Source: a virus. Taken from it: DNA of 33,573 bases. A model generated the notes under the pieces. The model saw only the letters and a program-made list of their open reading frames with translations, was not told where the DNA came from and did not search any database. Location: IMG/VR virus record IMGVR_UViG_3300035670_000799, positions 1 through 33,573 of that record. One strand, written 5' to 3'. Positions 6,178-33,197 of the stretch are shown piece by piece; the first letter of the stretch is position 1; each line of letters starts with the position of its first letter. The translations under genes were made by a program, and so were the position numbers.

Positions 6178-6492
6178 TCACAGCAAATTATTCTGCGCCG
6201 ACTCCTTTCCAGGCGTTCTCCCGCGCGTAATTTCGCGCAGTCGGTTCAAACTGATACCGTGGCGGCGGCAAAACTCCAACTTCAATTTGGTATATTCGTT
6301 TCTCATCCGGTATATCCGCTCGTCGCGGTTGTTGTCGCGGGTGATGTAGACAGATGCCGACTCCCATAACGCCCGCACGGAGTCGATTGCAGAGTCTATT
6401 TTATCGTCCTGCTCCGGAAATCTTTGTAGCAGTTCGTTTTTAAGGTCCTCAAAGAAATCACTTGCTTCGTAATTTTCATCTGTTTCAGCCAT
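6178..6492 (-). CDS. mor: Mor-family transcription activator (middle/late gene activator)
   Basis: A 104-residue protein. The segment SVYITRDNNRDERIYRMRNE followed by KLKLEFCRRHGISLNRLREI (about residues 46-89) matches the Mor/C family pattern: the YIPRG-like dimerisation strand, then a helix-turn-helix with RYG(I/V)S. Mor in Mu binds as a dimer and recruits RNA polymerase to the middle promoter. The ATG at 6492 follows GGGGGAC and overlaps the GemA stop by 8 bases; a longer reading from 6588 is the shadow of gemA. It is the only Mor/C-type gene found, so it may serve both middle and late control. Confidence 0.85.
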   Translation of the reverse strand: MAETDENYEASDFFEDLKNELLQRFPEQDDKIDSAIDSVRALWESASVYITRDNNRDERIYRMRNEYTKLKLEFCRRHGISLNRLREITRGRTPGKESAQNNLL

Positions 6493-6958
6493 GACCGTCC
6501 CCCAACTTAAACAGAAATGTCTTGCGCTCGCCGCATTCGTACTCGATATCGAACCCGCACCGCATAGCCCATTTCTTTTGAGCCTCAATAATAGTATCCA
6601 GCTTTTTAGCCGTCGCCCATTCCAATTTATCTACCCCGGCAACTGTCCTGCACCAGCGTCTCAACGCAGACTCATCGCTGTTTCGGACTACGCCTGCCTC
6701 GAACAGCAGCCGCCACACTGTTTTGATTTTTTTTATGCGTGCCGCGCGCCAATCTTGTGATTGACGACCAGATTTCCTGCGCAGCTCGGCAATCAGTGAA
6801 TCCAGTCTCGATGCCGGCACGGACTTCAGCGACACACGCCCGTCCGCGTCTGGTGTCGCACCAAAACGCGGCAGGATTTCTCCCCGCCAAACATCGTCGT
6901 CGATTCCTGCGTTGGCGCGTTCGATGTTGGCGATTTGGATTTTCTTATTTTGATTCAT
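6485..6958 (-). CDS. gemA: GemA-like regulatory protein (DUF1018)
   Basis: A 157-residue protein of the GemA/DUF1018 family, found immediately before Mor in Mu-like phages, as here. Features are an N-terminal IANIERANAGIDDDVWR helix, a central SRLDSLIAELRRKSG segment and a C-terminal conserved block around LEWATAKKLDTIIEAQKKW. GemA of Mu modulates host gene expression and DNA supercoiling-related functions; the detailed role is not settled. Its end overlaps mor by 8 bases and its start overlaps the end of the Rmf-HTH gene. Confidence 0.88.
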   Translation of the reverse strand: MNQNKKIQIANIERANAGIDDDVWRGEILPRFGATPDADGRVSLKSVPASRLDSLIAELRRKSGRQSQDWRAARIKKIKTVWRLLFEAGVVRNSDESALRRWCRTVAGVDKLEWATAKKLDTIIEAQKKWAMRCGFDIEYECGERKTFLFKLGDGHG

Positions 6959-7319
6959 TTTTCAATAACCTGACCAGCGCGCCAAGTTCGTGCAGCAACG
7001 CCAACGCCTTAAGCGTGGCGCTATCTTTTCTTGTGGGTTTGCGCCGTCCAGACTCGATGCGTGCATAGCTCGATTGCGGCATTCCCATCAGAGCTGCCAT
7101 TTGCGACTGTGTCAGTTGGAACCTCAGTCGCATAGCCAGTATGTCAGAAACATCTGACTGAAACGGTTTCTGCGGCATATCCAGAGACGCCTCGTAATAT
7201 CCGTCAATCCAGTCCTGACATTCCAGGCTGAGCGGTTTGGAACGGTACGGGTTTGGTGTTCCCGTACCGTTTTCATGATCGGCGCGGAACGCCGCAGCGC
7301 CTTCTTCATAGGCGTTCAT
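6945..7319 (-). CDS. Rmf-like domain fused to an XRE-family helix-turn-helix
   Basis: The first 45 residues (YEEGAAAFRADHENG, NPYRS, then W..GYYEAS) follow the ribosome modulation factor / CrpP fold pattern of G..A...G...NPY......W..G...A. Residues 55-110 form a classic XRE helix-turn-helix (ILAMRLRFQLTQSQMAALMG then QSSYARIESGRRKPTRKDSA). The protein is 124 residues. Rmf-like proteins occur alone in many Mu-like phages; a direct fusion to a DNA-binding domain is unusual. Together with the acidic gene upstream and a perfect palindrome 360 bases before its start, it could be an autoregulated repressor, and it is the best repressor candidate in the prophage. Confidence 0.75.
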   Translation of the reverse strand: MNAYEEGAAAFRADHENGTGTPNPYRSKPLSLECQDWIDGYYEASLDMPQKPFQSDVSDILAMRLRFQLTQSQMAALMGMPQSSYARIESGRRKPTRKDSATLKALALLHELGALVRLLKNESK

Positions 7320-7343: not shown

Positions 7344-7628
7344 TTATTCTCCACATAATTCTTCATCTTCCCACTCGTCGCGGGAAACAAATCGAATGCT
7401 CCATGTGTCTCCGTCGTCTCCATCAAAAGGGGATTCTTCATTAGGATATTGAGTGTCGTACCAGTTTTCCACGGCATTCTGCATGTCTTCTAGCGTTTCG
7501 TGTTCTTCTAATATCAGCAGGTCGTCGTTTCCAGAACATGCTGAATCCAGGAACGCCACCCTCTTGCCAGACAGCACTGCATTTATAACTTCAGATTCTT
7601 TGTGTGATTTAGATTGATTTGCGTACAT
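7344..7628 (-). CDS. Small acidic protein, function unknown
   Basis: The ATG at 7628 is preceded by GGAGAA at good spacing; an upstream GTG-type start at 7655 is less likely. The 94-residue product is strongly acidic in its second half (DDLLILEEHETLEDMQ, then SPFDGDDGDTWS and DEWEDEELCGE). No domain is recognised. Such charge distribution resembles DNA-mimic or antitoxin-like proteins, but that is only a suggestion. It is the first gene after the palindrome at 7681 and probably cotranscribed with the Rmf-HTH gene. Confidence 0.65.
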   Translation of the reverse strand: MYANQSKSHKESEVINAVLSGKRVAFLDSACSGNDDLLILEEHETLEDMQNAVENWYDTQYPNEESPFDGDDGDTWSIRFVSRDEWEDEELCGE

Positions 7629-7680
7629 GGCTATTCTCCGTTTTTGGTTCGGCACGATTGCCTCCCCACTGAAAACAGTA

Positions 7681-7697
7681 TATAGCCATTGGCTATA
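7681..7697. promoter_or_regulatory. Perfect 17-bp palindrome, putative operator TATAGCCATTGGCTATA
   Basis: Arms TATAGCCA and TGGCTATA flank a single T, with no mismatch. It lies 53 bases upstream of the acidic gene on the minus strand. TATACT, a good -10 match, overlaps the downstream arm on that strand, although I see no strong -35. This is the layout of an operator bound by a dimeric helix-turn-helix repressor, plausibly the Rmf-HTH protein encoded two genes downstream. Confidence 0.6.
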
Positions 7698-7733
7698 AAA
7701 CGCAGGCCAAAATCGAAAAATATTTTCGAATCC

Positions 7734-8222
7734 TCATCCCCGCATCACACCGTTAAACGCGGCCTTCAAATTTTCAGGCATTCCACCGCGTTTCTCGGCC
7801 TCAGAGCGAGCCCGCTCAGGCGGGACATCAGTGGTGACAGCGGCGGATTTGCGCGGCTCCGCCGGCAGATTTTGCCGCGCGCGGGAATTTTTTAGGAAAG
7901 CCTTCAGCCATCCGTGGTCTTTTGGGGTTTTCCATAGACCTGCCATCTGCTTTTCCCGCGCCGCCTCTGTCGCCTCGATCATCGCCGTCCTGAGTACATC
8001 GACGTCACTCTCCAGCGACAGCGCCTCTTGCGCCAGCGATAGCGCCCGGTCGTTCGACAGATCGCGCTGCGCTGGACGAAACAGCGTCAGATACGCCACC
8101 AGCGGACGTGCGATTTTTCCATTCGCTGCGAGCAATCCCAGCAGCGCCCGTCCAGATTCGTCCTGAATGAGCGCATCCAGATGGATGGTCGCGTGGCATA
8201 TTGGGCATCTGGCGAGTTTCAT
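7734..8222 (-). CDS. Conserved Mu-like prophage protein with CPIC motif
   Basis: A 162-residue protein starting MKLARCPICHATIHLDALIQ, a CxxCH motif that could bind zinc or simply cap the N-terminal fold. It is followed by helical sequence (GRALLGLLAANGKIARPLVA) and a basic, Ala/Arg-rich C-terminus. I recognise the opening as recurrent in transposable prophages, but no function is known. It sits in the accessory block between MuB and GemA, downstream of a dispersed palindromic element at 8249. Confidence 0.7.
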   Translation of the reverse strand: MKLARCPICHATIHLDALIQDESGRALLGLLAANGKIARPLVAYLTLFRPAQRDLSNDRALSLAQEALSLESDVDVLRTAMIEATEAAREKQMAGLWKTPKDHGWLKAFLKNSRARQNLPAEPRKSAAVTTDVPPERARSEAEKRGGMPENLKAAFNGVMRG

Positions 8223-14881: not shown

Positions 14882-15148
14882 CTAAAAACTCCTTAAAAGG
14901 GTTTCGCCGGCCTGCCTGAAATGCAGTTTTTTCACCGCCATCCATTGTTTGCCTGGCTGCCAATAATTGTTGTCTGTGCGGGTTGCGAGCCCTGCGTATA
15001 ACAAATTCTCCATGTCTCTCAGGGCCTTGGTTGGTGTGACTTCCAAATGCGCGGCTATCGCGTTCAATCTCACCGGGGTATCCTGTTGCGCCAGATATAG
15101 CAGCGCGTTAAGAATCCGTTGCTGGGCGTCATTTTTGTATTTTTCCAT
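14882..15148 (-). CDS. Small winged helix-turn-helix protein
   Basis: 88 residues with a winged-helix pattern: NDAQQRILNALLYLAQQDTP, a recognition-helix region LNAIAAHLEVTPTKALRDME, and a wing GLATRTDNNYWQPGKQ. The pattern is IclR/MarR-like. It probably regulates or assists the early operon. Its stop lies 3 bases before the coiled-coil gene's ATG and the two probably share a transcript. Confidence 0.65.
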   Translation of the reverse strand: MEKYKNDAQQRILNALLYLAQQDTPVRLNAIAAHLEVTPTKALRDMENLLYAGLATRTDNNYWQPGKQWMAVKKLHFRQAGETLLRSF

Positions 15149-15939: not shown

Positions 15940-16188
15940 TTATCCTTCAATCACCACGCATTCATGGCGGGCGCTTAAGGTTCTGTAAAGTTGGTTTGTT
16001 TCGCGCAGTAGTTCGTTGTTTTCAAGCTGTAAGCGATTGATTTCTTCTCTGGCGCTTTCAATCTCACAAGTAAGAAGGAGCATTGCTTGAAACACCGGGT
16101 CTTTTTGTAATTCCTTTGACTGTGCTCTTTCAAACGTTTTGCGCATACTTTCAGCGACTTGGCTTAATCTTGTTGCGACCAGATTCAT
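15940..16188 (-). CDS. Small coiled-coil protein, function unknown
   Basis: 82 residues, largely one helix with heptad pattern (ILTCEIESAREE-like region around residues 38-70: CEIESAREEINRLQLENNEL then LRETNQLYRTL). It overlaps the Ner-like stop by 4 bases. Its dimerisation is likely; its partner and role are unknown. Confidence 0.6.
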   Translation of the reverse strand: MNLVATRLSQVAESMRKTFERAQSKELQKDPVFQAMLLLTCEIESAREEINRLQLENNELLRETNQLYRTLSARHECVVIEG

Positions 16189-16466
16189 GCCGCCTCCTTA
16201 ACCGGCGCTTGCCGGCTGTGTGCCTCCATATAGCGCCGTTTGATGTCCTCCCAGATTGGCTCTAACGATGGGCATATCGGCTTGTCGATGATGAACGACA
16301 CGTGGACCGCCACGCGATGCGTTTTGACTCCGCGACGTTTTCCGTCTGCGCTCATTCTGGTTAGCGCGGATGTCACCGTGGACTCCGGGAGACCCAATTC
16401 CCGCGCTACGTCCTGTTTTGTTTTGCCGGCCGCCGCCAGGCGTGTGGTAATTTCGTCCGGTCGCAT
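16185..16466 (-). CDS. Ner-like winged helix-turn-helix regulator
   Basis: A 93-residue protein starting at the ATG 16466 behind CGGAG. MRPDEITTRLAAAGKTKQDV then ARELGLPESTVTSALTRM matches the Ner/Nlp-type helix-turn-helix, which in Mu damps early transcription from the promoter upstream. The C-terminus VKTHRVAVHVSFIIDKP is unlike Mu Ner, which is shorter (75). The gene lies at the head of the early operon, as expected for ner. A longer frame from 16655 is a shadow. The first 89 codons also overlap another frame (16848-16198). Confidence 0.7.
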   Translation of the reverse strand: MRPDEITTRLAAAGKTKQDVARELGLPESTVTSALTRMSADGKRRGVKTHRVAVHVSFIIDKPICPSLEPIWEDIKRRYMEAHSRQAPVKEAA

Positions 16467-16848
16467 ATAAAACTCCGTAAATTGCGCGCCGCAGCTTTTC
16501 TGAGCGGCGCTTCGGTTGCGGTTCGAGTTCCAGTGGTTCATCGGTTTCGGCCTCCGGTTCTTCTTCCGGCAAGACCAGACCGAATTCACTTTCAAATTCT
16601 TCTTTTTTAACGTCGCTTGCGGTATCATTGGCCCAGCAACAAAAAATGGCGTCAACTTCTTTACTGCCTGCGCTTGTTAATTCATAACTAGCAGGTTTTC
16701 CGTTCAAGTCGGTTGTGTAAATGCGAATTAAGCCGCGTTTTAGCAGCGCATTAATGGTGTTTTGGCGCGGTTTGCCGGTGCCGAATGTGCCGTTAAAATA
16801 GCTAAGCCCGTTAATCATTGCGGGTGATAAATTGCTGTTTGCTGACAT
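16198..16848 (-). CDS. First early-operon gene; winged-helix N-terminus, doubtful C-terminus
   Basis: Starting at the ATG 16848 (GAGGA ribosome binding site) the N-terminal 100 residues read well: SPAMINGLSYFNGTFGTGKP, then QNTINALLKRGLIRIYTTD, a winged-helix fold, followed by an acidic tail (EEEPEAETDEPLELEP). From about residue 128 the frame overlaps the Ner-like gene for 269 bases and becomes Gly/Arg/His-rich, as expected of a non-coding frame. Either the original stop has been lost by frameshift, or the real gene is shorter than the open frame. Not a known family; probably an early DNA-binding regulator. Confidence 0.55.
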   Translation of the reverse strand: MSANSNLSPAMINGLSYFNGTFGTGKPRQNTINALLKRGLIRIYTTDLNGKPASYELTSAGSKEVDAIFCCWANDTASDVKKEEFESEFGLVLPEEEPEAETDEPLELEPQPKRRSEKLRRAIYGVLYATGRNYHTPGGGRQNKTGRSAGIGSPGVHGDIRANQNERRRKTSRSQNASRGGPRVVHHRQADMPIVRANLGGHQTALYGGTQPASAG

Positions 16849-32423: not shown

Positions 32424-33197
32424 ATGAAGTCGTTCTTATCGTGGATGGGCGGTAAAAGCCGCCTTGCCAAAACCATTATCCCGCTAATCCCAGAACATCA
32501 TTGTTATTGCGAGGTGTTTGCGGGTGCGGCGTGGATTTTATTTTCTAAACCACCTAGCGATGTCGAGATAATTAACGATCTGAATGTTGAACTTGTCACG
32601 CTTTACAAGGTCGTTCGTCACCATCTAGAAGAGTTCGTAAAGCACCTTAAATGGCTTTTGGTGGCGCGCGATGAGTATGATTCGTTTATGAAATCAGCCC
32701 CCGAGACGCTGACAGATATTCAGCGTGCGGTGCGATTTTATTATATTGCACGAACATCATATGGTGCGAGGGTGGGTCATAATCCCAGCTTCAGCGTCAG
32801 CACCAATCGCCCAAGCAATTTTAATTTGCTGCGAATAGAAGAGGATTTGAGCGCTGCGCATATCAGGTTGGCGCGGGTGTTTGTTGAAAACCGCCCGTAT
32901 CAACAGTTTGTCGAGCGATTCGATAAGGACGGCGTTTTTATGTATGTCGATCCGCCATACTTTGGCTGTGAGGACTATTACGGTAAGGATATGTTTAGCC
33001 GATCCGATTTTCTTACCTTGCGTGACATGCTTGGCGAGGCTAAGTCAAAATGGATGCTCAGCATTAATGATGTGCCTGAAATGCGGAAGGTGTTTGACGG
33101 CTTTAACATCAAGCCTGTTCGCCTTGATTATAGCGTTGGCGTTCGGAAAGGCGAAAAGCGCAAAAGCAATGGTGAGCTATTGATAATGAACTATTAG
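32424..33197 (+). CDS. D12-class DNA adenine methyltransferase (Dam-like)
   Basis: A 257-residue N6-adenine methyltransferase. SAM-binding motifs WMGGKSRLAKTI (residues 7-18) and FAGAAW (32-37) and the catalytic DPPY (176-179, in YVDPPYFG) are in the alpha-class D12 order. It may methylate GATC-like sites and protect phage DNA or influence expression. Position at the right end matches the mom modification module of Mu. GGAGAG precedes the ATG. It is followed by a convergent small gene with a 4-base overlap. Confidence 0.93.
   Translation: MKSFLSWMGGKSRLAKTIIPLIPEHHCYCEVFAGAAWILFSKPPSDVEIINDLNVELVTLYKVVRHHLEEFVKHLKWLLVARDEYDSFMKSAPETLTDIQRAVRFYYIARTSYGARVGHNPSFSVSTNRPSNFNLLRIEEDLSAAHIRLARVFVENRPYQQFVERFDKDGVFMYVDPPYFGCEDYYGKDMFSRSDFLTLRDMLGEAKSKWMLSINDVPEMRKVFDGFNIKPVRLDYSVGVRKGEKRKSNGELLIMNY

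Follow-up and report, generated by a model that had tools for sequence, protein, structure and literature searches.

A putative autoregulated acidic protein-HTH cassette behind a conserved 17-bp palindrome in the early operon of a Mu-like virus

Acr-aca operons and the layout of the window cassette

In acr-aca operons, inverted repeats are located in the core promoter no more than 150 bp from the first gene, and the Aca proteins, of 60-65 aa, repress their cognate promoter (PMC9410906). Autorepression within the acr-aca layout has likewise been described for Aca2 (PMC8434428). Here we examine a two-gene unit in a viral record of 33,573 nucleotides (IMG/VR record IMGVR_UViG_3300035670_000799, the whole of which is referred to as the window), in which the gene for a very acidic protein (gene 1) is followed by the gene for a helix-turn-helix (HTH) protein (gene 2) behind a perfect 17-bp palindrome. 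As in Aca systems, a small gene and, behind it, the HTH gene share an operon. The unit resembles acrIF1-aca1 of the Pseudomonas phage JBD30 in its small first gene, its HTH gene in second place, its palindrome at a candidate promoter and its position as an accessory cassette in a Mu-like phage; however, it contains no known Acr, occupies another genomic site, and gene 2 runs into gemA. Gene 2 gave no alignable match to Aca1 (JBD30) or Aca2 (ZF40), the two family members compared. A similar arrangement is found in the gemA-mor interval of the Mannheimia phage vB_MhM_3927AP2, where 3927AP2_16 and 3927AP2_17 encode an acidic protein (pI 4.33) and a 71-aa HTH_3 protein behind an inverted-repeat promoter, although the first gene there is unrelated (phrog_18666) and the HTH protein (phrog_7950) has no blastp match to gene 2. 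As far as our searches reach, the regulator and operator presented here appear to be undescribed.

The unit between the early genes and gemA

The record represents a Mu-like (B3-like) virus, whose minus strand carries the genes for a MuA-type transposase, MuB, DUF3164 and GemA. The transposase is ~30% identical (30-33%) to those of B3-like Pseudomonas phages, and the phage relatives matched at this level gave no match to either cassette gene. The initial annotation had placed the unit within the early operon, which agrees with the presence of MuA, MuB and DUF3164 upstream and of GemA directly downstream (Table 1). Since a phrog_2161-type gene and gemA are adjacent in several Mu-like phages, the pair of genes occupies a variable interval; in the Pseudomonas phage Fc02, accessory genes of the left operon have been described as lying within a plasticity region (PMC9936078). 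Across the window, minus-strand genes from ~16.9 kb down to 1 comprise the early, terminase, portal, MuF and virion morphogenesis genes, while plus-strand genes from 17286 on encode protease, head and tail proteins and end with a DNA methyltransferase gene (32424-33197; phrog_56, E 2e-85). Inverting positions 1 to ~17000 would yield the usual Mu order, and the break near 17 kb reflects either a rearrangement or a joining of sequences during assembly.

Table 1. Positions of the cassette components and neighbouring features in the window
Feature	Position	Strand	Remarks
Upstream early gene, phrog_2161 family	7734-8222	-	Adjoins gemA in several other Mu-like phages
Further 17-bp inverted repeat, rich in A+T, TCGAAAAATATTTTCGA	7713-7729		Directly precedes the palindrome; at about -43 to -59 relative to the expected start
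Perfect palindrome of 17 bp, TATAGCCATTGGCTATA, putative HTH-protein operator	7681-7697		Identical 17-mer, same orientation, upstream of the relative on contig L002
TATACT, candidate -10 hexamer	7677-7682	-	Same place in L002: TTGACT-17-TATACT
Gene 1, very acidic 94-aa protein	7344-7628	-	ATG at 7628, stop at 7344, GGAGA ribosome-binding site
Gene 2, 124-aa protein, proposed autorepressor	6945-7319	-	HTH_3 at residues 62-97; weak RMF-like residues 3-47
gemA homologue	6485-6958	-	14-base overlap with the end of gene 2

The palindrome TATAGCCATTGGCTATA is exact, with 8-base arms TATAGCCA and TGGCTATA about a one-base centre (8-1-8), and has a single copy in the 33.6-kb record when up to 3 mismatches are allowed. 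As a bare motif it is no rarer than chance, one palindrome with arms of at least 8 bases and a centre of at most one base being observed in the window against 1.8 expected in shuffles. Its end lies ~53 bp from the gene 1 ATG, and the overlap with a minus-strand TATACT that had been reported initially was confirmed, the hexamer sharing 2 bases with the downstream edge of the palindrome. No recognisable -35 hexamer accompanies it, and for this reason no sigma-70 promoter in the window passes the scan; a local promoter at the palindrome may thus be weak or in need of help. The second repeat TCGAAAAATATTTTCGA is possibly an UP-element-like stretch or a second site.

For gene 1, codon usage resembles that of coding sequence solely in the gene's own frame, and the product (pI 4.05, charge -19.3) is the most acidic among the 27 minus-strand ORFs tested. 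Searches of viral contigs, phages, plasmids, Pfam, PHROGs, NCBIfam, PADLOC and the PDB returned no convincing homologue, and the structure model (pLDDT 61) is too weak to assign a fold.

Gene 2 has codon usage compatible with a real gene and encodes a clear HTH_3 domain (PF01381; E 3e-8, 33.9 bits against a gathering cut-off of 23). The interval 7344-7697, in which the initial annotation had located an acidic protein together with an Rmf-HTH protein, holds the palindrome and gene 1 only, the HTH gene lying at 6945-7319; the acidic gene and the HTH_3 domain of that description stand, whereas the RMF component is weak. The alignment of residues 3-47 spans most of the ribosome modulation factor domain (RMF, PF04957), and these residues are predicted with low confidence to form two helices, but they score below the gathering cut-off (E 0.026, 15.0 bits against 27.9) and, unlike RMF itself, are fused to an HTH domain. 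The RMF part found no match in the PDB, and a literature search for RMF joined to HTH in phages returned nothing relevant. The likeness of the N-terminus to RMF is suggestive only and, being absent from the L002 relative described below, this part would be dispensable for operator recognition. The structure model of the whole protein (pLDDT 70) is likewise too weak to assign a fold, and fold searches with the models retrieved generic HTH domains only.

The 17-mer and the HTH gene in a second phage type

A scan of 2.9 million IMG/VR viral contigs with TATAGCCANTGGCTATA, which comprises the 16 specified bases of the palindrome, retrieved 7 contigs. An independent protein scan with the HTH protein identified one specific relative, and this relative was encoded on one of the same 7 contigs, L002 (= L014). 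Here the identical 17-mer is found in the same orientation to the genes inside a TTGACT-17-TATACT promoter, where it takes up the greater part of the spacer and extends into the -10 hexamer; the inverted repeat thus forms part of the core promoter, no more than 150 bp away from the first start codon, as in acr-aca operons. The unit behind this promoter consists of a 59-aa gene followed by an overlapping 61-aa HTH gene, the product of which is 50% identical to gene 2 over 56 residues. A lambda-type portal and a DNA methylase, both encoded on the opposite strand from the two-gene pair, mark L002 as a different phage type.

The surrounding sequences have diverged considerably. Nucleotide identity in the HTH stretch shared by L002 and gene 2 is 51%, falling to 38% at third positions, and the palindrome flanks show 18-25% ungapped identity, a similarity at or close to chance given that shuffled sequences were as good in 4 of 200 cases upstream and 105 of 200 downstream. 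The 17-mer has therefore been retained while the sequence around it has drifted apart. Each unit has its own, dissimilar first gene, that of L002 having relatives in Pseudomonas and Stutzerimonas phages. From this comparison it follows that operator and regulator travel together while the cargo changes, a link that is based on one relative. Among the ~120 other loci fetched as a control with the 15-bp core, relatives of the HTH protein were absent, so that presence of the motif does not by itself entail presence of the HTH gene. Similarly, in the remaining 6 contigs with the full palindrome it falls inside coding sequence (4) or before unrelated genes (2), and no HTH relative is present.

The L002 first gene (1391-1570) belongs to a family of small proteins of 59-76 aa that also occurs in phages STP12, STP9, Lebethron and ZQG1. 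Two further scans with the HTH protein added only unrelated or distant matches. Among the candidates set aside, the match in Vibrio phage ZF14_PE001 is a different HTH protein; L018 and the matches in Gemmatimonadota and Clostridia genomes have only HTH residues in common with gene 2, together with no matching palindrome; and L155 and L156 are not HTH proteins.

A candidate Aca-like cassette and competing readings

We consider it likely, on the basis of these sequence comparisons, that the unit is a modular accessory cassette in which the HTH protein acts as an autorepressor at the palindrome, in the manner of Aca in an acr-aca operon. The autoregulated module proposed by the initial annotation gains strong support at this level from the recurrence of the same 17-mer before the single specific HTH-protein relative that the viral contigs yielded, in another type of phage and with another partner gene. 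The gene 2 HTH_3 protein, presumably as a dimer, would bind the two half-sites TATAGCCA and cover the -10 region, such that accumulation of the regulator would shut off transcription of the cassette and the acidic protein would be produced in an early pulse before repression sets in. As gene 2 overlaps gemA, the latter is probably also transcribed from the palindrome promoter, and the site would damp gemA and the genes beyond; repression may extend to gemA in this way, or the bound site may act as a roadblock to read-through from the early promoter. An anti-defence function of the gene 1 protein is possible and a reasonable guess on the analogy of acr-aca operons, and the protein may serve as a DNA mimic or other inhibitor. 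If the cassette operates as proposed, sequence alone would have defined both a family of phage HTH proteins and the precise operator that they use, direct searches with this operator could uncover exchangeable cargo genes, such genes in comparable cassettes frequently inhibiting bacterial defences, and the 94-aa orphan acidic protein would become a concrete candidate for testing. A more far-reaching version, in which the HTH protein founds a new Aca-like regulator family, TATAGCCANTGGCTATA serves as bait for new anti-defence genes, gene 1 encodes a DNA-mimic inhibitor of a host defence and the RMF-like N-terminus provides a second, ribosome- or RNA-linked control, is in our estimation doubtful.

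Toxin-antitoxin operons are also autoregulated at palindromes, and gene 2 resembles the HTH antitoxins NadS, MqsA and HigA in having an HTH_3-type domain and in being second in a two-gene unit. Its HTH domain furthermore gives matches to NadS, MqsA and HipB-type antitoxins, and its distant relatives in Gemmatimonadota genomes look antitoxin-like. Nevertheless, all of these matches fall below curated cut-offs, the extremely acidic gene 1 protein is not a recognisable toxin (no toxin-family match in Pfam, PHROG, NCBIfam or PADLOC), and in L002 the partner has been exchanged for one whose relatives occur in phages with no HTH gene seen adjacent. A type II toxin-antitoxin pair in HigBA/NadST order, with gene 1 as toxin and gene 2 as antitoxin and autorepressor, is consequently unlikely, and the antitoxin-toxin pair named among the initial possibilities was not supported.

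The overlap of gene 2 with gemA, and the position of the site inside the early operon and ahead of gemA, would also suit an element of the phage programme in which the HTH protein brakes gemA and later genes, by a roadblock or by control of an internal promoter, and gene 1 is incidental. This reading is quite unlikely given that several related phages have the phrog_2161-type gene and gemA adjacent with no such gene between them, and that the L002 pair is oriented against its neighbouring genes and does not run on into gemA. An immunity (lysogeny) switch, also put forward initially, is highly improbable: although the temperate nature of the phage, the pairing of an HTH protein with an operator and weak matches to phage repressors are in keeping with such a role, the cassette lies inside the early operon, behind MuA, MuB and DUF3164, being neither at its start nor divergent from it, it has a single operator, and other HTH genes (14882-15148 and 16185-16655) are located at the early-operon start. 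Similarly remote is the reading of the palindrome as a terminator, RNA hairpin or chance motif, since despite a terminator-like call at 7697-7681 and the fact that palindromes of this size arise by chance, the same 17-mer in L002 has no T-run behind it and is kept exactly where its flanks are not.

The Aca-like reading of the window unit aside, HTH genes in comparable settings were encountered in two further phages. In 3927AP2 (L009, 5026-5652), the acidic protein is of 130 aa, and the promoter TTGCAA-16-TATAAT carries GTAATTATATTAC in its spacer; in a six-sequence comparison the HTH protein was weakly similar to Aca1 (31% over 48 residues, E 2e-4), and this unit between gemA and mor is a candidate acr-aca-like operon. 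In the Pasteurella phage AFS-2018a (L007, 4558-5417), an HTH_3 gene overlaps a gene with weak similarity to SprT/IrrE-type peptidases, right after a mor homologue.
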